This document shows, piece after piece, positions 41,921-56,095 of a DNA stretch of 64,000 nucleotides. The DNA is from Theocolax elegans. Lineage: Eukaryota > Arthropoda > Insecta > Hymenoptera > Cerocephalidae. The stretch lies in assembly GCA_026168455.1 (NCBI GenBank), contig CM047429.1, positions 2,477,720 through 2,541,719 on the forward strand, in the 5' to 3' direction. The number at the start of each line of letters is the position of its first letter. Position 1 is the stretch's first letter. The translations under genes and the position numbers were made by a program. The notes below the pieces were generated by a model. That model saw nothing but the letters and a program-made list of their open reading frames with translations, did no database searches and was not told where the DNA came from.

Positions 41921-44540
41921 AACTTATAATTGAAATTCTACAAGGAAAAGAAAGCATTCTGATCAGAAATGTTGCACATGAGGAATGACTAAGTAGCGAG
42001 GGCATGTTTAGGCTTCCCATTACTTGATAGACAACGGCGCGCATTTCGGGTCCAAGTTAGACTTCCTTATTCGCCCATGACAAACTTCTAACGAAGAAGC
42101 AGACGAATAAATAATACTACAATTTTTGTATTATATTAATTTTAATTAGTTCACCTATCCTAGTTATAACCTACAAATTAGATGTTCTTAACCTCAAACC
42201 ATTATACTATTAAAATGACGTCGATAATCTCAACATTTCAAAATTAATAAAACACCTTATTTTTAATATTTAACACATATACGTCCAACACCAAATCATT
42301 AAAATGATAAAAATACCCGCAACATCTGAAAAATAATAGAAACATACATGTTGTAACGTTTAAAATATTAATAAAAAACTGGTTAAAATCTTTAAAATAA
42401 ATAAATAAATACTCTTGACCTCAAATCTTTAAAATCATTGTTATATCGTAAAAAATATTACTGAATTAACAGAAACATTTTAGGTACAACCAATAAAATA
42501 GATACGTCTAACCTCAAATCTTTGAAATTACTAAACAACCTCAAAAAATATCAACATTTCAAATTAGTAGAAACACTCTTATTATAACCTGTTAAATTAC
42601 TAAAAACGGTCTCATTATAACCTATAAAATATTTACTCATAACCTCATATCTATAAATAATTGAAATAACGTAAAAAATACCAACATTAGAGAATTAACA
42701 GAACTATTTAAGTTTCAACCAATGGTTCTAACCTCAAATCGTTAAAAATACTAAAACACCCTCAAATAATATCAAAATTTGAAAATTATTAGAAACTCTC
42801 TAATTATAACCTATAGAATTATTACACGGTCTGATTATAACCTATAAAATAAATATTCATAACCTCAAATCTATAAAATCATTGAAAAAACGTAAATAAT
42901 ATCAAACGTAAATATTATTTTGATTCAAATTATTAATATATGACTTATTATTAGTTTTCATTGTAAATAACTTATAATTTAAATTGATAATGTTGAATAT
43001 TTTAATAAAAAGTTTCAACTGAAAAACTTTAAAATTGTTGTCACCTCCGTAGAAGTATAAATAGTTGGTTTATTTACCAGCTACCTATAACTGATTCACT
43101 GATTGCTTAATTATGTAGTGGCTTAAACATTCATTGAACGGGATCTAAACCCTAAAAAATAGAGAAATGATTTATTTTTTATTAAGCGAGGAATTCAATT
43201 TACCGAAAAAAACGTTCTGTAACCATGTTGTGTATTCTTTGAAGATATTTTGCGAATTTTTTCACATCTTCCTATTGATAGATCAGCGACATTTTTGGGC
43301 TGCCATGAATCATTGTTTAATTATAGCTATAAATTACCAACAAAAATGCTTATTTACGTATAATTAATTAATAATTTAATATTTCTTAACAATCTTTCTA
43401 TCACTGTATTCTGTTTGTTTTGAACAGTAAAGATGATATTTTTGAGGTTATTTTCGTAACAAGCAATTTGAGGTTATGAATATCAATTTTTTGGTTGTAA
43501 CTGAAATCATTCACTTAATTTTCTAATGTTGATATTTTTTACGTTATTTCAAGTATTTTATACTATTGGGTGAAACTAAAATGATTCTGTTAATTCTCTA
43601 ATGATGTTATTATTTACGTTTTGTCAATGATTTTATAGATTTGAGTTTATGAATACTTACTTTATAGGTTATAATCAGACCTTTTTTAGTAATTTAACAG
43701 GTTATAATAAGAGTGTTTCTACTAATTTGAAATTTTGATATTTTTTGAGGTTGTTTAGTAATTTCAAAGATTTGAGGTTAGACATATCTAATTTATTGGT
43801 TGTACCTAAAATGTTTCTGTTAATTCAGTAATATTTTTTACGATATAACAATGATATAAAGATTTGAGGTCAAGAGTATTTATTTATTTATTTTATAGGT
43901 TTTAACCAGTTTTTATTAATATTTTAAACGTTACAACAAGTATGTTTCTATTAATTTTCAGATGTTGCGGGTATTTTTATCATTTTGATGATTTGGTGTT
44001 GGAAGTATATGTGTTAAATATTAAAAATAAGGTGTTTTATTAATTTTGAAATGTTGAGATTATCGACGTCATTTTAATAGTATAATGGTTTGAGGTTAAG
44101 AACATCTATTTTGTAGGTTATAACTAGGATAGGTGACTTAATTAACTAATTAAAATTATATAATACAAAAAATTGTAGTATTATTTATTCATCTGTTTCG
44201 TCGTTAGAAATTGTCATGGGTGAATAAGGAAGTCTGATTATCTAACTTGGACCCGAAATGCGCGCCGTTGTCTATCAAGTAATGGCTACATAGGGAAGCC
44301 TAAACATGCCCTCGCTACTTAGTCATTCCTCATGTGCAACATTTCTAATCAGAAATCTTTCTTTTGCTTGTAGAATTTCAATTATAAGTTTACTTAGTAT
44401 TTACTTAAGTACTATCTTAAGTATTTACTTAAGCACTATCTTAAGTATTTACTTAATTACTATCTTAAGTAGTTACTTAAGGTATTGACTTAAGTATTGA
44501 CTTAATTATTGACTTATATTGTTACGGGCAAACTTAAGTA
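41921..44540. repeat. Tandem unit 1 (2.62 kb) with inner palindrome
   Basis: Arm 41921 to about 42910, spacer to about 43595, inverted arm to 44397, then CTTAAG minisatellite and a short TGTTACGGGCA at the end. Arms hold degenerate repeats of AACCTCAAATCTTTAAAATCATTG-like words. The spacer holds a 66-codon frame (43167-43367) with no family resemblance. Confidence 0.85.
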
Positions 44541-47144
44541 AACTTATAATTGAAATTCTACAAGGAAAAGAAAGCATTCTGATCAGAAATGTTGCACATG
44601 AGGAATGACTAAGTAGCGAGGGCATGTTTAGGCTTCCCATTACTTGATAGACAACGGCGCGCATTTCGGGTCCAAGTTAGACTTCCTTATTCGCCCATGA
44701 CAAACTTCTAACGAAGAAGCAGACGAATAAATAATACTACAATTTTTGTATTATATTAATTTTAATTAGTTCACCTATCCTAGTTATAACCTACAAATTA
44801 GATGTTCTTAACCTCAAACCATTATACTATTAAAATGACGTCGATAATCTCAACATTTCAAAATTAATAAAACACCTTATTTTTAATATTTAACACATAT
44901 ACGTCCAACACCAAATCATTAAAATGATAAAAATACCCGCAACATCTGAAAAATAATAGAAACATACATGTTGTAACGTTTAAAATATTAATAAAAAACT
45001 GGTTAAAATCTTTAAAATAAATAAATAAATACTCTTGACCTCAAATCTTTAAAATCATTGTTATATCGTAAAAAATATTACTGAATTAACAGAAACATTT
45101 TAGGTACAACCAATAAAATAGATACGTCTAACCTCAAATCTTTGAAATTACTAAACAACCTCAAAAAATATCAACATTTCAAATTAGTAGAAACACTCTT
45201 ATTATAACCTGTTAAATTACTAAAAACGGTCTCATTATAACCTATAAAATATTTACTCATAACCTCATATCTATAAATAATTGAAATAACGTAAAAAATA
45301 CCAACATTAGAGAATTAACAGAACTATTTAAGTTTCAACCAATGGTTCTAACCTCAAATCGTTAAAAATACTAAAACACCCTCAAATAATATCAAAATTT
45401 GAAAATTATTAGAAACTCTCTAATTATAACCTATAGAATTATTACACGGTCTGATTATAACCTATAAAATAAATATTCATAACCTCAAATCTATAAAATC
45501 ATTGAAAAAACGTAAATAATATCAAACGTAAATATTATTTTGATTCAAATTATTAATATATGACTTATTATTAGTTTTCATTGTAAATAACTTATAATTT
45601 AAATTGATAATGTTGAATATTTTAATAAAAAGTTTCAACTGAAAACTTTAAAATTGTTGTCACCTCCGTAGAAGTATAAATAGTTGGTTTATTTACCAGC
45701 TACCTATAACTGATTCACTGATTGCTTAATTATGTAGTGGCTTAAACATTCATTGAACGGGATCTAAACCCTAAAAAATAGAGAAATGATTTATTTTTTA
45801 TTAAGCGAGGAATTCAATTTACCGAAAAAAACGTTCTGTAACCATGTTGTGTATTCTTTGAAGATATTTTGCGAATTTTTTCACATCTTCCTATTGATAG
45901 ATCAGCGACATTTTTGGGCTGCCATGAATCATTGTTTAATTATAGCTATAAATTACCAACAAAAATGCTTATTTACGTATAATTAATTAATAATTTAATA
46001 TTTCTTAACAATCTTTCTATCACTGTATTCTGTTTGTTTTGAACAGTAAAGATGATATTTTTTGAGGTTATTTTCGTAACAAGCAATTTGAGGTTATGAA
46101 TATCAATTTTTTGGTTGTAACTGAAATCATTCACTTAATTTTCTAATGTTGATATTTTTTACGTTATTTCAAGTATTTTATACTATTGGGTGAAACTAAA
46201 ATGATTCTGTTAATTCTCTAATGATGTTATTATTTACGTTTTGTCAATGATTTTATAGATTTGAGTTTATGAATACTTACTTTATAGGTTATAATCAGAC
46301 CTTTTTTTAGTAATTTAACAGGTTATAATAAGAGTGTTTCTACTAATTTGAAATTTTGATATTTTTTGAGGTTGTTTAGTAATTTCAAAGATTTGAGGTT
46401 AGACATATCTAATTTATTGGTTGTACCTAAAATGTTTCTGTTAATTCAGTAATATTTTTTACGATATAACAATGATATAAAGATTTGAGGTCAAGAGTAT
46501 TTATTTATTTATTTTATAGGTTTTAACCAGTTTTTTATTAATATTTTAAACGTTACAACAAGTATGTTTCTATTAATTTTCAGATGTTGCGGGTATTTTT
46601 ATCATTTTGATGATTTGGTGTTGGAAGTATATGTGTTAAATATTAAAAATAAGGTGTTTTATTAATTTTGAAATGTTGAGATTATCGACGTCATTTTAAT
46701 AGTATAATGGTTTGAGGTTAAGAACATCTAATTTGTAGGTTATAACTAGGATAGGTGACTTAATTAACTAATTAAAATTAATATAATACAAAAATTGTAG
46801 TATTATTTATTCATCTGTTTCGTCGTTAGAAATTTGTCATGGGTGAATAAGGAAGTCTGATTATCTAACTTGGACCCGAAATGCGCGCCGTTGTCTATCA
46901 AGTAATGGCTACATAGGGAAGCCTAAACATGCCCTCGCTACTTAGTCATTCCTCATGTGCAACATTTCTAATCAGAAATCTTTCTTTTGCTTGTAGAATT
47001 TCAATTATAAGTTTACTTAAGTATTTACTTAAGTACTATCTTAAGTATTTACTTAAGCACTATCTTAAGTATTTACTTAAGTACTATCTTAAGTATTTAC
47101 TTAAGTATTGACTTAAGTATTGACTTAAGTATTGACTTAAGTAT
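44541..47144. repeat. Tandem unit 2 (2.62 kb) with inner palindrome
   Basis: Near-identical copy of unit 1 (offset 2619-2620 bp), including the 66-codon spacer frame at 45786-45986. It ends in the minisatellite at the LTR-like insertion (47145). Confidence 0.85.
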
Positions 47145-47166
47145 TGTGACGGGCATAACCATATAT

Positions 47167-48696
47167 TGTCACACCGCACTGGGGATCAGGGTGCGGGTGA
47201 TGCAATTAATATCAATGATAAATTAACAGAGAATTTATTATACGATAGTAATTAAATACACGGTTGCCAGTCGTGCTCGCGATTAAATATTAACAGCTGC
47301 TATTATTAATAATTACGCTTAATTAGTATAAAGTTAATAGGGCTCGTAGTTTGGCTCGGTATAATTTCTCGCACGGCGATATAACTATTGCCAGATCGAA
47401 CATCTGTTCTATCGACGAAAATGGCGACGCCGGCCACGTGTGCGAATACGCGAAAAGGGGATTAGCGGCACACACACCTTACGAGGAGAGGAACACGGGT
47501 ATGGATAGCACTTTGCACCAACCTTATATCGTAATGCCGTTCTCTCAATTGCACCCGGTGCACACTCTCCGGACTCTTAGTCTCGTACGTGAAGAACGTG
47601 GAAAAAAGGCTCAAATCTCGCTTCGTGCGTCTCTATACGTCTAGTCACGGCCGTGTTCCCGAGCTCTCTCTCTGTGCCTTCGTCCTGCGAGAGCGCCGCG
47701 CGCATGCGTGGCGACCGCCTTCGCGCAGTGCGAACGCGGCCGTATAGCGAGAGCGGCTTGATGTTGTTGTTGGCGTTCTGCTAAGGTTCGAGTGAGACGA
47801 CAACGACAACGACGACTGGCGACGACGAGCTGGCGACGACGATGCTGCTATTTGGTAATTATAATCTCGTTCCTTATTAATTATCGGCTAATAGATCCGT
47901 GAGTTTATTTCCAGATGGACGACGAACCTTACTGCCGTGGTTGACGAGTCGTGGCTGCTCGGCGGATGCATGTACTTGTCGCTATCTCCGTCTCTCTCTA
48001 CTTCGTGGCTTCTCTGCTGCTGAGACGTCCCTTCACGACGTCGGCTCCGGAGGCTGTTCCTCGGGTCTACTGCGCGGCTGCTATAATACGGTAAGGAGTA
48101 ACTTGACAGGTGCCTTGTTATTTAATTAGTATATGTGAGCAATGTTTATGCTCACATAACCTCTAAACCTGGCTCCTATACACCTCTACTCCTGTACACA
48201 GTCTTGTGTACTCCTACCTGCTCCTTAGTCTTGAAAACATACTCATCATTATGCCTTACAGGTTGATCTCCCTGTACGAGTCCGTTGCTGTTGGATGGCT
48301 CCTTCAAGATTGAGGCTCTATGGATATGCTGTAACAATTGCTGCAGCTGCAACAGCCGTCTTCCTTATACGTTGGACCTCGAAGCCCTGTCCATGCTCTT
48401 ATGCTGCCTTCGCACTCAGCTGATGTCTCCAGGCTCTTCGAGTGCTGCTCGCCCTGCATGTAGCTTCTTGTTGGCTACTGGTTTCCTCGACTCTTGTGTG
48501 TGCTGGCTCCGCTTCTGTTCCAGGGTGTAGCTTGTTCGGCTTTAGTGGGGTTATCTTCTTATATAGGTAGCTAGGGATATATGCTCGGTGCTATATTTAT
48601 TTAATATACGGTTTAGGTAGGTAAATTGGGTAATAGGTAGGTAGGAATGTGCGTGTGCTCGCTATGCACCATGACAGGCACACTTGCCTTGTCACA
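47167..48696. mobile_element. Nested solo LTR-like element (1530 bp)
   Basis: It starts TGTCACACCGC and ends CCTTGTCACA, with ATATAT on both sides (47161-47166, 48697-48702). It is GC-rich in the middle (47640-48540), with frames of 76-97 codons lacking recognisable motifs. TG...CA ends with inverse TGTCACA/TGTGACA fit a long LTR. It landed 22 bp inside the outer element. Confidence 0.6.
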
Positions 48697-48732
48697 ATAT
48701 ATAGATGTATGGTTAGGCTCCATTCACATAGC

Positions 48733-48800
48733 GTAATAGCTCAAGCGATAGAGTGTAAGCGCGCCACGTAAGACGTCCGGGTTCAAGCCCGACTCTCGGA
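48733..48800 (+). other. tRNA-like SINE head or tRNA pseudogene
   Basis: TAATAGCTCAAGCGATAGAG resembles the A box and D arm, and CCGGGTTCAAGCCCG resembles the B box and T arm. The T loop has six instead of seven bases and no acceptor or anticodon stem forms, so it is not a working tRNA. AT-rich DNA follows. Confidence 0.45.
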
Positions 48801-49517
48801 AGATTTTTTTAATTATTTAAATTAATTTATTTAAATAATTAATAAATCAAAATTAATAAAATTTATAATTTTATTTAAAGATTTTTTTATTTTGCAAAAT
48901 ATACATATTCTGAAATTGAAATACGACTAAAATTAACTAAATTAAGTTGCAAATTTATATTGTTTATAGTTAATAATAATAAAATTTGAAATTATACAGT
49001 ATATTATAATATTATAATATATAATTATACATTATATATATATATATATATATAAAATATATGTGAGAAAAGTGATAAAAAATAAATAAGTATTTGAACA
49101 TTAAATTAAAGTAAAATGAATTAAAATTAAAATTAAGATTGTTTTTCACGTTTGTTAATTATTATATTAATATAAGATTCAGATTTTGAAAACTAATGTA
49201 AATTAATATAAAGACAGAGAGGTTGACGACTCTGTGCCAAAATCATATGAAACAACAAAGAAGATAATGAGAAGAGAGGGAAACCGAAAACTCCAGCTGT
49301 AGGTGTGAAGAAGGTGGGAGAGCAGTCCCCACCTCTAACCAAAGGTACAAAACCGGCCGTCTCGCTGTCGAATTCAGTATTCGCCTCGAGCTGTAAGGCG
49401 AGGAAGGAAGCACCCTCCTCGCCACTTCTAGAAATAAATAAATATTGATAGTTAAATTTTGTGAGTTTGATTAAACAGCTAGAGGTGTGATGTTCATTTG
49501 AAGGTACTTGGATAAGA

Positions 49518-49851
49518 TGGAATGCTGGAATCATTCTAATCTTTACCCAAGTCCTTTTATCTTTTAAAGCCAATTCCTTAGAATACATTCGGACGAAAAG
49601 GAGCGCTAGATTCGCTTTTTCTTCTACCCGAATTATTCCAATTTTCCTATTTTCCACAGAAAAATACTCAGATGATGTGGAATACTGGATTTATTCCAAC
49701 ATCTACCTGATTTTTTCAAATAATATATTCACCAAAGAGTTTATTGGGCGAGGCCGAACGCTGGATTCGTTCGAACCTCTATCCAACCTCTTATTCCATT
49801 AAAATCTCCAGAAATCGTTCCGGGATGAGAAGAAACACTGGATTTGTTTCT
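49518..49851 (+). repeat. Array of five hairpins with constant loop and covarying stems
   Basis: Loops begin at 49525, 49606, 49685, 49761 and 49838 and read CTGGAAT, CTAGATT, CTGGATT, CTGGATT, CTGGATT. The stems differ but always pair: GGAATG/CATTCT, AGCG/CGCT, GGAATA/TATTCC, CGAACG/CGTTCG, AGAAACA/TGTTTCT. Each hairpin is followed by a CTNTACCC-like tail (CTTTACCC, CTACCC, TCTACC, CTCTATCC, TCTACCCC). The period is 76-81 bp. The array lies near the right end of an LTR-like element. Function unknown. Confidence 0.8.
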
Positions 49852-49945
49852 AATCTACCCCAGACGTTTTCATTTCATACATTTATTATGGTCCTGCTAA
49901 AAATAAATGTATTTTTATGTAAGGGATAAAAATAAGCCCGTTACA

Positions 49946-50190
49946 GTATTGACTTAAGTATTGACTTAAGTATTGACTCAAGTATTTACTTAAGCATTTA
50001 CTTAAGTATTTACTTAAGTTCGAGTGGAATGCCTAAATTAAAAACTTAAAAATTTCCAAGTAATTACTTAAGATTTAACTTAAGAAGAACTTGAGCAGCA
50101 AGTCCAAATACAAAATAAAAAAAATTTGGTTAATTCTTAAGTAACTTCTTAAGTGTTGACTAAAGTAAATACTTAAGTTATTACTAAAAG
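49946..50190. repeat. CTTAAG minisatellite, right
   Basis: GTATTGACTTAA/GTATTTACTTAA units followed by looser copies. It is the inverted counterpart of 41556-41920. Confidence 0.85.
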
Positions 50191-50302
50191 CATCAGAGAT
50201 GTTCAATTGTTTATTTCAAACGCCTTCTGATTGGTGGGAATTTTTTAAAATCCTCGCTTGTGATTGGTGGGAGATTTGTCCTCTGGGAGAAATGTCCATG
50301 AC

Positions 50303-52235
50303 CCGGCATATTGATGATAAATTTAGAGATGTTGGTTTTTATCGGGATTATAGGAAAAGAGTCTCTCATGATTTAAACCAGAGTGTTTTCTTTTTTAAGA
50401 ATAGATTATTAAATTTTGAAATTAGAGATTTAAATTTTGAGATTCACCGTTTGAATGGATTTTTATTAGATTTGAAAAATTATTTATTTAGAAATTTAAA
50501 TTTGAATGATTTAAAACATTTTATGTTTAATCAAGAGAGTCACTTTAATAGGGTTAAATATGATAAAAGAAAATATTTAAAAAGAAAATTTGAATTATTA
50601 TTATATAAGAAAAACTCTCATTTCAATCAATTGAATAATTCTGAGATTAATGATAATTGGTTCAAGAATCTTACCGATAGTGTTATACCTAGGGAAGTGG
50701 TGAATATCATGTCAAGGGGTTCTAGGTTTGGTCTACCATATTTGAGGAGGGATCTTCCCATTAAAGAAATAGTTGCTGATGTTGAAAGTAGAATAATAGG
50801 TTTTGAAGAAAATTTCAAAACTAAATGTAGAGGATCTTTGGTTAAAGTGGTAGGTAATTTTAAAAAAGAAAGTAAATATCATAATTTTTTAAATAGTAAT
50901 TTATTTCGTGAATTGAAAATAACTAACGATTTCTTGAAGGAAAATCCAGAGATAATTTTTCAGAAAGCGGATAAAAGTAATATAACAGTAGCTTCGTATA
51001 AAAAAGATGTTATAGTTCGGATTAAGCTCCTTTTGAATGATGACACTACATATAAGAAAATTAGGAATCCACATATTAATAAATTGCAAGATAAATTAAA
51101 GGAGTTACTTTCTTGTTGGAGAAAGAAAGATTATATCGATGATAAAACTTTTAAATATTTAAAATGTCAAAATGGTACAGTAGCAAAATGTTATGGGCTT
51201 CCTAAGATTCACAAAGAAAAGCTGACATATAGAATAATTATATCATCTATTAATTTTCCTACTTATAAACTTGCTAGATTTTTATCTGATATTTTAGTTA
51301 ATGCAGTTGGTAAAACAAATTCTTATATTAAAGATATTTGGAGTTTTTATAATATGATGACACATGTGATTATTCCGAATAATTGTAAAACGATCTCATT
51401 GGATGTTGTATCTTTGTTTACAAACGTTCCTTTAGATTTTGTGAATGATATAATACTAGAAAAATGGTCAGATATTAGTTTATATACTATTTTAGATATT
51501 AATGAATTTACCAAAGCACTTAATTTAGTATTTAATAATACATTTTTTTCTTCTGATAAAGATTTTTATCAACAAAGATATGGATGCTTAATGGGATCAC
51601 CGTTGTCACTTGCAATAGCTAATTTAGTAATGGAAAAGTTAGAGGGTATTGCTTTGTCAAAATTGAGTTTTGAACCAATGATTTTTAGTAGATTTGTTGA
51701 TGACATCTTTACGATAGTACCTGAATGTTTTGTTGATGAAATGGTTGATGTTTTTAAATCAATTTATGATAGAATTAAATTTACAGTAGAGGTTGAGATT
51801 GATAAAGAATTAAATTTTTTAGATATTAAAGTTATTAGAGATGATAAAAATAAAGTTAAATTAAATTGGTATAGAAAGCCTACTTGGTCGGGTAGATTTT
51901 TAAATTTCCATTTTCATCACCAGTTCAGTGACAAGATTGGCGCGTTGAAAGGTGTTATTGACCGTGCTGTTGGACTGTTACACGGTGATTTTAGAAAAGT
52001 AAATTTGGATTTAGTTAAAAAAACTTATGTTAATAATAATCATCCGATAGATTTGATTAATAGAGTGATTGAAGAGAGAGTGAATCAAATTTATAATAGT
52101 AAATTAAAAGTTAGAGTAGATATTAAAAATGATGCATTTGTTGTTATACCGTATGTTAGAGGTTTATCTGAAAGAATAAGAAAAGAAATTAAAAAACTAA
52201 ATATTCAAGTTTTCTTTAGAAATATTATTAATTAA
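50303..52235 (+). CDS. Penelope-like reverse transcriptase (main part)
   Basis: The open frame from 50199 is 678 codons, but its first 35 or so are foldback-arm sequence. PLE coding starts at about 50303. A helical N-terminal region is followed by RT: AKCYGLPKIHKEKLTYRIII (about residue 330), SLDVVSLFTNVPLDF (motif A, about 400), QQRYGCLMGSPLSLAIANL (motif B, about 465), FSRFVDDIFTIV (motif C, about 500, both aspartates intact), LNFLDIKVIRDD, NWYRKPTWSGRFLNF. Residues needed for polymerisation are present and no stop occurs. It ends at 52235. The endonuclease follows in another frame, so the fused polyprotein is broken at this point. PLE RTs are related to telomerase and use the GIY-YIG nick to prime. 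Confidence 0.85.
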
Positions 52236-52240
52236 GTTTT

Positions 52241-52603
52241 TTGTTTAATAATTGTAATGATAGAGATAGAAAGGATGATAAATTTCGAGTTGTTTATAAA
52301 ATAAATTGTATTGATTGTGATAAATGTTACATTGGTCAAACTAGTAGATATTTGAAAAAGAGAATTTATGAACATAAATATAGTTTGAGGAGTGTATCTG
52401 TCACATCAGGTTTGAAAGAGCATTGTTTAGATTTTGTTCATTGATTTGATTTTAATAAAGTAGAAATTTTAGAACAAAATATTATAAATAAATTTAAAAG
52501 AGAAAGTCTTGAGAATATTCATATATTTAAGAATGGTAAAAATGTTAATTTAATGTTAGAGTCAAGTAAATTAAATAAGATTTATCATCCTATCTTAACT
52601 TAA
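52241..52603 (+). pseudogene. PLE GIY-YIG endonuclease domain
   Basis: It is shifted out of the RT frame. It reads KFRVVYKINCIDCDKCYIGQTS, YLKKRIYEHKYSL, then a TGA stop (52442-52444), then NKVEILEQNIINKFKRESLENIHI and IYHPILT. The VVYKI/CYIGQ tyrosine pair, the arginine (KKRIYEHK), CxxC-type cysteines and a downstream ESLE glutamate are those of Penelope endonucleases. One frameshift and one stop are the only visible lesions. Confidence 0.8.
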
Positions 52604-52669
52604 CTTAGTTTATTGGTGTGAATTTATTTAGGTGTGGGTCCTTGGAGTGTGGAATAGTTTTTCATTTCA

Positions 52670-52709
52670 GTCCCTGATGAGGAGCAACAGCGAGCTCGAA
52701 ACGTCGGAC
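52670..52709 (+). ncRNA. Hammerhead ribozyme motif at the PLE 3' end
   Basis: GUCC, core CUGAUGA, an extra G, stem II GAGC...GCUC (8-nt loop), GAAAC, cleavage triplet GUC, then GGAC, which pairs with the opening GUCC. Stem III is two pairs. The position after the endonuclease and before the terminal repeat is where hammerheads are known in Penelope-like elements. Predicted cleavage is after C52705. Confidence 0.75.
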
Positions 52710-52961
52710 AGCATATTTGGGGTTAGTAGATTTTTGGTGTAGGGGGGCAGTCAGATTGCTTTATTAATAATTTGTGTTTATTTTCAGTTAGTGTTTTTAT
52801 CTTTTATTTTTTATTTTTATTATTTTTATAGATTCTTCGGTGGTGATTATAAGTAGGGGCAATCTGACTGTCCATATAATTGACTGTAAGACCGATAAAA
52901 ATATTAATTAATTTAGTTATACTACAGTCGACATAAGTAATATTTTATTAACTTCATTAGT

Positions 52962-53066
52962 GACTGCTTTCTTTTCAGTTCCGCATTGTAATGCGGAAAG
53001 TGAAAGGATTTTTTCTGATGTTAATAAAAATAAAGATGATAAGGTAAACAAAACAAATGTTTACAC

Positions 53067-53070
<4 letters not shown>
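52962..53070 (+). pseudogene. hAT-type transposase relic, dimerisation end
   Basis: It continues the frame broken at 41056: TAFFSVPHCNAESERIFSDV, then NKNKDDKVNKTN. hAT C-terminal dimerisation domains characteristically spell PHSNAxxERxFS, and this matches with C for S. It runs into (TA)n at 53071. Confidence 0.7.
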
Positions 53071-53111
<41 letters not shown>

Positions 53112-54090
53112 GGGTGGTTCTCTGTGACATCGAAGATGAAAAAAATAAATATTGATATAACTGTGGGAATATGTTTTAAAGGTATCCAGTAGTTCTCCTG
53201 AATTTTTTCAGATTTGTTCGCGACCATTATTTTAAGTTACAGAGACTCAAAGTTGAAATTTTAGCACTTTTTTGCATTATATGCTCATTTTCATGAATTT
53301 GTAGCTCCCAGGGGATGCATTTTTCACTATCAACGTAAATACGACATTTTTTGTAAAATTTTGTGAACTTTTCATTAAAAATACTTTTAAAGTCATACAT
53401 GTATGCTGGCACACTCTTGTAAACCATTTAAACCTTAAATAGTGATAATCAGCAATTCTGCTACGGACTCTGGAAACCTAATACTGTCTATGATACTGAA
53501 ACAAGTGGAGATACTTTTCCACCACTCCAAGGTAAGTGCATAAATTTTTTTGCAATGATCATGCTAATAGATTCATTGTTATAAGGCAACAAATGTACAT
53601 TTCTGTTAACATTTCGGGCACTTTTCCCAGATATTATAACCATAAGTGATCTTAATGATTTAGACCCACTCTGGAAATTTATAAGCAGTTTCTGACTATA
53701 AAAAGACATCTTCTAGACAGTATTAGGTTTCCAGAGTCTGTAACAAAATTGCTGATTATCACTATTTAAGGTTAAAATGGCTTACAAGAGTGTGACAGCA
53801 TACATGTATGACTTTAAAAGTATTTTTAATGAAAAGTTCACAAAATTTTACACATAATGTCGTATTTACGTTGATAGTGAAAAATGCATCCCCTGGGAGC
53901 TACAAATTCATGAAAATGAGCATATAATGCAAAAAAGTGCTAAAATGTCAACTTTGAGTCTCTGTAACTTAAAATAATGGTCCCGAACAAATCTGAAAAA
54001 ATTCAGGAGAACTACTGGATACCTTTAAAACATATTTCCACAGTTATATCAATATTTATTTTTTTCATCTGCGATGTCACAGAGAACCAC

Positions 54091-54092
<2 letters not shown>
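53112..54092. mobile_element. Compact foldback element (GGGTGGTTCTCTGTGA family)
   Basis: It starts GGGTGGTTCTCTGTGA and ends TCACAGAGAACCACCC between (TA)n tracts (53071-53111, 54093-54136). The arms are about 380 bp and nearly perfect inverses (53112-53490 against 53715-54092). The centre is a 220-bp loop. Frames on both strands are arm readings. It is shorter than, and homologous to, 2004-5935. Confidence 0.85.
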
Positions 54093-54136
<44 letters not shown>

Positions 54137-54138
<2 letters not shown>

Positions 54139-54480
54139 GACAATCCATGTGAAGTGGTCCGATCAAAATTTTAAAATGCACCAAATTTTGTATACAGACA
54201 AAATTTTTTAAGTACTGGAATCTATTTGTACAAAAGTTATTCTAACCTTAAAAAGTGAATTTTTCACTTACACAATCGTTTTTACTTATGTCTAGAATTT
54301 ATCCTTCTGGGTTAAAACTTATAATCTCAAGGTCAATGTCACACAAATTACATGTCAATATTCAACTTGAAAAAAGTGTAAGTACGTCCAAATTGACTTT
54401 TTTATCGAAAAGTCTAAAAAAAACTTGAAGCAATACTTTTTAAATAGTCTGTAGCTTTTTTATGGCTTCAATTCTGCAAA
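54137..54480. mobile_element. Left arm of a TIR element (GGGACAATCC type)
   Basis: It starts GGGACAATCCATGTGAAG right after (TA)n. It contains GGTCCGATCAAAATTTTAAA, CTGGAATCTATTTGTACAAAAG, TTATTCTAAC, ATCCTTCTGGGTTA and CAAGGTCAATGTC blocks. The same blocks occur inverted and in reverse order at 63480-63931. The two arms may belong to one 9.8-kb element filled with later insertions, or to separate copies. Confidence 0.6.
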
Positions 54481-54843
54481 AAGTGATTATAATTTAAAGA
54501 CACACGAAATTTTTCGCAGATTTTCAGGGATGTGCCTGTCAAGCCTGAGTGCTTGATAGTCACATCCCTGATAAAGGGCCGCCGGCTCACCTCCTCGGAA
54601 AGACTAACAAGGGAAGTACTTGACCTCAGGGAAACAGATCTTATCCTGACTTTGGTATATCTTTTATAATGTAGAAATATGATGAAATCCAAGTTATTGC
54701 TTGCCAATAGCCACATTGACCAAAGGTATTCGACATCTGAGAATATTTTCAATGAAAATTATATAGTTATTATTTAGATATAGTTTAAATAAAAGCTAAA
54801 ATTTCTCCATTTGGAGCAAGGTTTTGATAAATATAAGAGATTG

Positions 54844-55443
54844 AAGATCGTTATACGATTCCAGCATCGAACTCGAGAAAATAAGTGGTTCCACTTCACG
54901 CGGTCGCGTCTCATTTAATAAACAATAAATAGTTTATTTATTGCGCTATACCAGTACTGTTGACTGTGTATATTATCTTAGTTCGCGATATTTTTCCCCT
55001 CTCTCTCAACAAGTCGGCCGTTTACCGACTTGTAATTTAAAGCGTAGACTTCGGCGACATATAGATATTTTGTCTATTATTTATTTTTATACTTATTTGA
55101 ATAAATTCATTTTTATTAATAGAAATTCAATCCGGTGTTCGAGTAATTGAATTTAATCCAAGTATGACTTTTTTCGTGATCCTAAGAGCTTGTATGTTTC
55201 TGGTTAATAAGTGCTCGGCGCGATATCCCTGTTTCGCGGTCAATTTCAGATTTGATTTTTACCTGGTTGTTATCAGAAACTGGACCTCGGTTTGAGGCTC
55301 ACACTTAACAGATTTGATAGAGCGGACAGGTAACCGCCGCCGCATCGCGGAAAAAATCGTTTATTTGAAAACGGTAAGTTCACCGTACCGCTGAGCAGCC
55401 GCGATAATAAAATAATCATCCGCGCGACAGTCATACTGTTACA
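54844..55443 (+). repeat. Dispersed repeat family R, copy c (LTR candidate)
   Basis: It is the longest copy of the family. It ends ...ATACTGTTACA immediately before TGGCACCAAACG (55444-55455), which looks like a primer binding site, so the family may be an LTR. It contains TGTGTATATTATC near the CTCTCTC tract. The 5' boundary is not certain. The gag fragment that follows belongs to a family whose other copy has a different LTR nearby, so the link is unproven. Confidence 0.45.
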
Positions 55444-55455
55444 TGGCACCAAACG
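55444..55455 (+). other. Primer-binding-site-like sequence
   Basis: TGGCACCAAACG directly abuts the TTACA end of repeat copy c. A TGACGCCCAACG variant lies 37 bp downstream (55480-55491). Confidence 0.4.
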
Positions 55456-56095
55456 TAAATTAATAGATTGGGCTTATATGACGCCCAACGTTAATTTCTA
55501 GATTGCGCCTACGAGGTGCACAACGTACATTTTTATGATTGCGTTCTTTTTGTGATACGAGCGGTGAAAACGAAAGTGAATCTAATTTAATCTAATTCAT
55601 TTACTTGTTATTATCAATTTATATTATATTTAATTTTTTTAAGTACGTGTGGATTTAACGTGTAATTTTTATTATTTACTAGTTACGATAATTAGCATAT
55701 TTGTTATTACCGACAGTTAGCTTAATCGGTCTGCGGTTAATTCTAACCTTATAATTATTGTATTTAGGCAATAATTTATAAGTTTGATCCGGATCTTCTT
55801 TTATTGTATAATAACTAATAATAACAATAATAATCACTTTTTCAATAAATTACACGTAAATGATAGTAAATTTTAATTTTAAAATTGAAATATAGAACGA
55901 TTCGGCTTGAGGCACGCAATTTACTTACCGAGTCCCTAATTTCAAGCAGGTTAGTTGGAAAATCGACGTTATTTAATTTTCCGACGTAATAAAAATTGTA
56001 ACACCAGTGCGAGGGTAAAAACTTTTGTTTTTGAAGTTTGCTTGATAAATTTATGTATTTGACAACGCGGTCCGGCTCTTGCTGTATGCGTACAG

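Follow-up and report, generated by a model that had tools for sequence, protein, structure and literature searches.

A row of five covarying hairpins with a constrained loop in the long terminal repeat of a Ty3/gypsy element of Theocolax elegans

The window analysed here, a 64,000-nucleotide stretch of the genome of the wasp Theocolax elegans, contains a solo long terminal repeat (LTR) of a Ty3/gypsy element on the plus strand at 47145-49945, running from TGTGACGGGC to GCCCGTTACA, with boundaries read from the sequence. The LTR has TGTGAC..GTTACA ends and is flanked on both sides by GTAT. It is interrupted by an insertion at 47167-48696 (1.53 kb, TGTCACACC..TTGTCACA, flanked by ATAT) that looks like another solo LTR. 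A tRNA-like stretch inside the LTR (48725-48805) has A-box- and B-box-like words and is presumably similar to a tRNA-derived SINE; other copies share the sequence from 48697 onwards. The left part of the LTR (47145-49400 in the window, compared with loci L002-L008) differs strongly between copies, with insertions and varying match starts, and the right 550 nt, including the hairpin array described below, are 95-98% alike in the 40 copies scored of 301 candidates. The solo LTR sits within a 12-bp repeat and neighbours a reverse transcriptase frame. Next to 12-bp AGTATTGACTTA repeats, a 678-amino-acid open frame (50199-52235) with a sub-threshold match to RVT_1 (25.8 bits; cut-off, 29.6) reads like a Penelope-like element.

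The initial annotation had placed the hairpins in an LTR-like element, which we can now assign to the Ty3/gypsy group. Taken across copies, the element has TG..CA ends, a target duplication (ATGT in copy L004), a primer-site-like sequence and a polypurine tract, the last lying upstream of the 3' LTR start in one copy. In several other copies a primer-site-like sequence, which we take to resemble the 3' half of tRNA-Arg, follows the same end of the 5' LTR. One pair of LTRs (C1) is not a clean element because its flanks are unlike each other. A 1011-amino-acid frame in one internal copy carries the Pfam domains RVT_1, RNase H, Integrase_H2C2 and rve; reverse transcriptase, RNase H and integrase occur in the Ty3 order, and the best solved-structure match of the frame is Ty3-G Gag-Pol. 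The best named relatives of this pol frame are from wasps (Glypta fumiferanae, 36% over 80%; Copidosoma floridanum, 47% over 51%), and ten unnamed proteins outscore both. These relatives favour a wasp over an ant as the host, although retroelements give weak evidence on this point.

Near the right end of the LTR, five hairpin units form an array on the plus strand (49506-49865), the last of which stops 80 nt short of the LTR end. Unit 1 (49506-49552) has the loop CTGGAAT (49525-49531), unit 2 (49587-49633) the loop CTAGATT (49606-49612), and units 3 (49666-49712), 4 (49742-49788) and 5 (49819-49865) share the loop CTGGATT (49685-49691, 49761-49767 and 49838-49844, respectively); the 3' side of unit 5 is one base shorter. 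The five spaced hairpins reported earlier are thus real, and their first three stem pairs are exactly those that had been listed for each unit. The hairpin is longer than the 6-8-bp stem given for them and has two parts: an outer stem of about 3-5 pairs, an asymmetric internal loop (2 bases on the 5' side and about 3 on the 3' side), a bulged mid stem, and an upper stem of six pairs beneath the 7-nt loop. When folded singly, all five units adopt one general shape, with z-scores of -2.96, -2.50, -3.90, -2.12 and -2.68 for units 1-5 against 200 dinucleotide shuffles.

The spacers between units (31-36 nt) resemble one another at the level of shuffled sequence or slightly above it. Loop starts are 81, 79, 76 and 77 nt apart, and because this spacing is not a constant multiple of three, we rejected a coding repeat. 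The window contains 337 hairpins with six pairs and a 7-nt loop, and nowhere else in its 64 kb do at least three of them with near-equal loops fall within 400 nt. When positions 44000-56000 were compared with 4227 Rfam families (E up to 10), none of the 26 matches overlapped 49506-49865.

Pairing within the array is maintained through extensive sequence change. In an alignment of 16 named pairs across the five units (80 cells), 88.8% of cells are paired and 13 of the 16 pairs show a double change. Four of five covariation measures exceed all 500 shuffles, the remaining one, which counts further pair types, being matched by 35 of 500, and slid registers of the alignment reach at most 60% pairing. 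When mutations are simulated as independent events in a paired hairpin, at the divergence seen among the units, 52 ± 4.3 cells remain paired, against 71 observed, and 3.3 double changes arise, against 17 observed; none of 20,000 runs was as high for either quantity. Departures from the majority base are found at 32% of stem sites compared with 15% of unpaired unit sites. The hairpin structure of the array is therefore well supported.

Genome searches returned many copies of the array, together with a divergent relative in which pairing is kept. A pattern for unit 5 matched 149 places, against 0 for the reversed control, and the 100 places listed were all of the unit-5 type; the pattern can match this unit only, since fitting the others would require one more base in its spacing. 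When a covariance model of the hairpin was applied to fetched loci, five units were found in 8 of 8 and 22 of 23 scanned loci of the family to which the window array belongs (family A); one shortened copy, L049, has three units. Among viral sequences of IMG/VR, the unit pattern gave two matches (L009 and L010), neither of which matched the hairpin model, and a scan with pol gave 413 stretches, none of which was confirmed.

The six-pair stem and 7-nt loop appear in the minimum-energy fold of 39, 36, 35, 32 and 38 of 40 family A copies for units 1-5, respectively. In these 40 copies, substitutions affect 10 of 1,400 loop sites compared with 162 of 7,557 sites in the rest of the array outside the stems (p = 1.1e-4). 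Across 63 copies, a minor base present in at least 4 of them occurs in 0 of 35 loop columns, 8 of 142 stem columns, 4 of 25 internal-loop columns and 14 of 157 spacer columns. The eight common stem variants are divided: a standard pair is lost in three and preserved in another three, and the other two fall at pairs that are unformed in the majority.

A second pattern search of the genome gave 8 places. Three are unit-5 variants (L080, L081 and L083), one is a five-unit copy (L085), one belongs to a different family (L082), and at the remaining three (L078, L079 and L084) the hairpin model matched nothing. The different family, family B, is an older LTR family related to family A; identity to the query copy is 74-87% among its better-covered matches. 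The hairpin model (E up to 0.1) identified 47 family B units in 11 loci, with unit spacings near 120, 68, 86 and 80. We combined the five window units with five taken from single B copies into a set of ten unit types; the B copies were chosen for good scores, which favours pairing, and the same stems emerge from the commonest states across all B copies. Pairing holds in 86.1% of the 158 cells of this set, and double changes occur at 15 of its 16 pairs. None of 500 shuffles was as high on four of the measures, and 85 of them reached the fifth. The upper six pairs are formed in all 60 cells, and two mid-stem pairs are poor (unpaired in 4 and 7 of the ten types).

The loop had been described as invariant with variants, and invariance is not borne out: the ten types read C-U-N-R-A-N-U, with C in 10, U in 10, G in 8, G in 9 (one A), A in 10, U in 8 and U in 10 at the seven successive positions. 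The loop is the most constrained part of the array, yet it is not invariant. This pattern bears on the possibility that a host SAM-domain protein, similar to Smaug or ZCCHC14, recognises CNGG loops and so controls the translation, tailing or stability of the element RNA. In the Smaug recognition element, HBV PRE SLalpha and HCMV RNA2.7 (bound by ZCCHC14), a hairpin is likewise read at its loop with a free stem, and C1, G3 and G4 occur together in 7 of the 10 unit types. However, G3 or G4 is broken in the other three (A2, B2 and B5; CTAGATT, CTGAATT and CTTGACT); two of these loops are the most frequent form of their unit among family B copies, and the third, CTAGATT of unit 2, is found in 39 of 40 family A copies. 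Because the loop varies in this way, a strict SAM-domain site fails as an explanation. U2, A5 and U7 are constant across the ten types, at positions that are free in the CNGGN motif, and the units differ from SAM hairpins further in having a seven-base rather than a five-base loop, an outer stem and a kept internal loop. Excerpts of the relevant literature describe CNGGN pentaloops that recruit ZCCHC14-TENT4 to viral RNAs (PMC11055085) and SAM proteins that read loops rather than stem sequence (PMC11499389), but a second hairpin class in this genome, with the loop GCANNGYGCG (see below), lacks CNGG altogether, and on balance we regard a SAM-domain reader as quite unlikely.

Comparison between the families separates changes that were fixed in a lineage from those private to single copies. 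Units 3, 4 and 5 of A and B were matched by order, which is an assumption, chiefly for unit 4, and the weak mid-stem pairs were left out. Twelve of the resulting 38 pairs differ; 11 of these are double changes with pairing kept and one is a case in which the A pair is unpaired, with no kept one-sided change among the 38. Private changes were taken from 62 family A copies (the 63 less the truncated L049) and from 39 of the 47 family B model matches, eight having been dropped as duplicates or damaged. In family A, 68 single-copy deviations from the commonest pair break pairing, 52 keep it with a change on one side and 1 keeps it with a double change; the corresponding counts in family B are 43, 15 and 2. 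Kept doubles therefore make up 3 of 181 private changes but 11 of 12 changes between families (p = 1.7e-14, which is only a guide because cells are not independent events). If a host mutation process made the double changes, dead copies should also show them; compensation therefore belongs to changes fixed in the replicating lineage, and the contrast points to selection within that lineage. The earlier proposal of selection on structure beyond repeat ancestry is accordingly upheld by the divergent second family, the shuffles and this control.

The same data constrain a reading without function, in which repeat ancestry is combined with template switching, for example during reverse transcription, that copies one arm of a hairpin onto the other. 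Hairpins can arise through such switching and be maintained by it with double changes, as set out in part of PMC8794818, and the 11 double changes between A and B come without one-sided intermediates. Because the private changes of copies do not compensate, switching during host replication is unlikely, an argument that leaves switching during reverse transcription unaffected. Against both forms, the loops and the internal loop have been retained, with differences at 32% of stem sites compared with 15% of unpaired sites, and one pair of the GCANNGYGCG class follows a stepwise path, from A-T through G-T to G-C, in three related copies. We consider an absence of function very unlikely.

We also searched the genome with pol, scored 42 of 11,745 candidates and grouped the Ty3/gypsy copies by eye. 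The sample comprised eleven other copies (among them F1-F9, F11 and F12) and twelve short pieces upstream of reverse transcriptase. The ten-unit model found no clear unit in the twelve pieces: scores did not exceed 10.5 bits in the first five, and the highest value among the remaining seven, 14.6 bits (E = 0.019), came from a 30-nt match in F11. In 4 of the 11 copies (F1, F2, F5 and F12), however, the same part of the LTR carries a row of two to four hairpins with a different loop, GCANNGYGCG. F7 has a single such hairpin, at the cut end of its piece, and F9 has one hairpin related to this class; F1, F2, F7 and F12 are mutually close, so that there are about two independent groups. No GCANNGYGCG row was seen in the pieces of F3, F8 and F11, of which those of F3 and F8 may be non-LTR. 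A single 10-bp hairpin, CTTTTCTTCC / GGAAGAAAAG (L120:869-895 and L125:37-63), is common to F4 and F6 in the part of the LTR where other copies carry rows; its loop is CTTCGTA or CTTCGCA. In F11 (L128, reverse strand, near 18 and 118), CTACGTYRCTGAAT is repeated about 100 nt apart near the LTR end, and is possibly a third kind of leader repeat.

The GCANNGYGCG hairpins also preserve pairing while stem sequence changes. Among 15 units found by the loop motif alone, the first four pairs are complete in 14 and three of the four are formed in the other; in 7 of the 15 a bulge follows the fourth pair. In a set of six distinct units with long stems, selected for their pairing, 53 of 54 cells are paired and double changes number 13, a level that none of 5,000 shuffles attained. 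Six pairs distinguish F1 unit 3 from its counterpart in F5, all six by double changes that keep pairing; between F1 unit 4 and its counterpart five differ, two as kept doubles, one as a kept one-sided change and two as broken pairs. The stepwise series noted above consists of A-T in F1, G-T in F2 and G-C in F12. A 16-nt pattern of this class matched 73 genome places (control, 0), among them about ten pairs separated by some 6-8 kb, a distance that two LTRs would show. In these families the first hairpin is preceded by a TATA-like box, and the row would lie in the leader.

For family A, motifs likewise suggest that the array lies in the R/U5 part of the LTR, so that the 5' leader of the transcript would probably include it. 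An initiator-like TCAGT at 49374-49378 may mark the transcription start region; the block that contains it is 86-89% shared between A and family B. A short inverted repeat, GGCGAGGA..TCCTCGCC (49380-49425), lies in this shared block just past the putative start. A possible poly(A) signal, AATAAA, lies downstream of the array at 49902-49907, and a second AATAAA is present near 49435, just upstream of it. Because the array is placed before the primer site, it would be present in every full-length RNA if transcription starts upstream, as the motifs suggest.

The strand data are divided. Folded alone, the minus strand is more stable than the plus strand in four of the five units. The ten unit types contain 10 G-U wobbles compared with 8 A-C (3 compared with 0 in the upper stem), and wobble-type changes among family A copies comprise 18 G-U and 11 A-C kinds. 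The regular spacing within the LTR and the folding of the minus strand could suit an element that acts as DNA, either a cruciform or an array of protein-binding sites such as an insulator. The insulator of Gypsy consists of repeated Su(Hw) sites in the 5' untranslated region, which are sites in DNA sequence. It shares with our array the position of a repeat in the leader of an insect Ty3/gypsy element, but in the array the stems change in sequence while their pairing stays. A DNA site would keep its stem sequence, whereas the stems here vary more than unpaired sites, and the internal loop and bulge would make poor cruciforms; action as DNA is thus highly improbable.

We hypothesize that the array acts as a multivalent recognition platform, in which five like hairpins about 80 nt apart present the same loop. 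A partner would read each unit at its constrained loop, leaving the stem free in sequence, and an oligomeric protein of the element, with Gag as the first candidate, would bind its own full-length RNA with high avidity; such binding would serve particle assembly or packaging. We infer that the array is transcribed, that RNA is its working form and that a protein, Gag, reads it. The covariation within the array and across two families, the compensation among changes fixed between families rather than private to copies, the low variability of the loop positions, and the place of the array just before the LTR end and the primer-site-like sequence all speak for such a platform. Against it, rows occur in only 4 of the 11 other copies and 3 of the 8 common family A stem variants break a pair. 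The three same-strand frames of one internal piece contain no CCHC zinc knuckle, so Gag would need other means of binding; a zinc knuckle pattern occurs in 2 of 25 relatives (P0023, and P0002 near the integrase part), and many relatives lack a Gag part. We give a platform for RNA recognition or packaging in the 5' leader, most likely read by Gag, a probability of roughly 40%.

Two other uses of a leader RNA would also leave stem sequence free. In RNA transport or localisation, a dynein-adaptor or Staufen-type protein would read the shape of the hairpins and carry the RNA to the oocyte or germ plasm. Readers of this kind rely mainly on helix shape, which leaves the constrained loop unexplained. 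The occurrence of several stem-loops with free stem sequence fits this use, and localisation elements are given as multiple stem-loops in part of PMC11499389, but we think it unlikely.

Alternatively, kissing contacts between loops could drive dimerisation of the genomic RNA. All ten unit types have YUNR at the start of the loop by sequence, and YUNR is the U-turn pattern; with anticodon loops and the target loops of antisense RNAs the array shares a pyrimidine at position 1, U2, a purine at position 4 and a length of seven bases. This likeness is one of sequence only, and no tRNA fold was found at the array or elsewhere in the window (ARAGORN, bacterial settings). GCGC occurs within most loops of the GCANNGYGCG class, and a section of PMC11381356 describes a palindrome close to the 5' end of Ty3 by which that element dimerises. 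Yet CTGGATT is not self-complementary and its variants keep no single complement, so that dimerisation through these loops seems improbable.

Two links to the primer system were rejected. Mimicry of the anticodon of the primer tRNA is at odds with the anticodon loops of tRNA-Arg, whose sequences mismatch the array loop, and kissing between the loop and the primer site is not kept by the loop variants.

The recognition platform that we favour has counterparts in position: the packaging and dimerisation structures of Ty1, Ty3 and retrovirus leaders likewise lie near the RNA 5' end and the primer site. No row of five hairpins with a shared loop is described for these leaders in the portions of PMC4974528 and PMC11381356 that cover them, and we found no array of this kind in the open-licence literature of PubMed Central. 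Because the loop differs by lineage while the row persists, a co-evolving element protein as the reader fits better than a fixed host factor. A possible extension, about which we are doubtful, is that the loops are lineage-specific tags (C-U-N-R-A-N-U in one lineage and GCANNGYGCG in others), each read by the Gag of its own lineage, by which co-expressed elements would sort their RNAs; the layout of the row would then have been kept while the tag was replaced.

In yeast, the packaging sequences of Ty3 are not precisely defined (PMC11381356, PMC4974528), although the untranslated regions and POL are needed, as stated in part of PMC11381356. The selection of their own RNA by Ty3/gypsy elements is thus poorly defined even in this host, and a covarying, loop-constrained repeat is a compact candidate for the signal. 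The presence of two loop classes in one genome would allow a direct binding test of the specificity between loop and partner.
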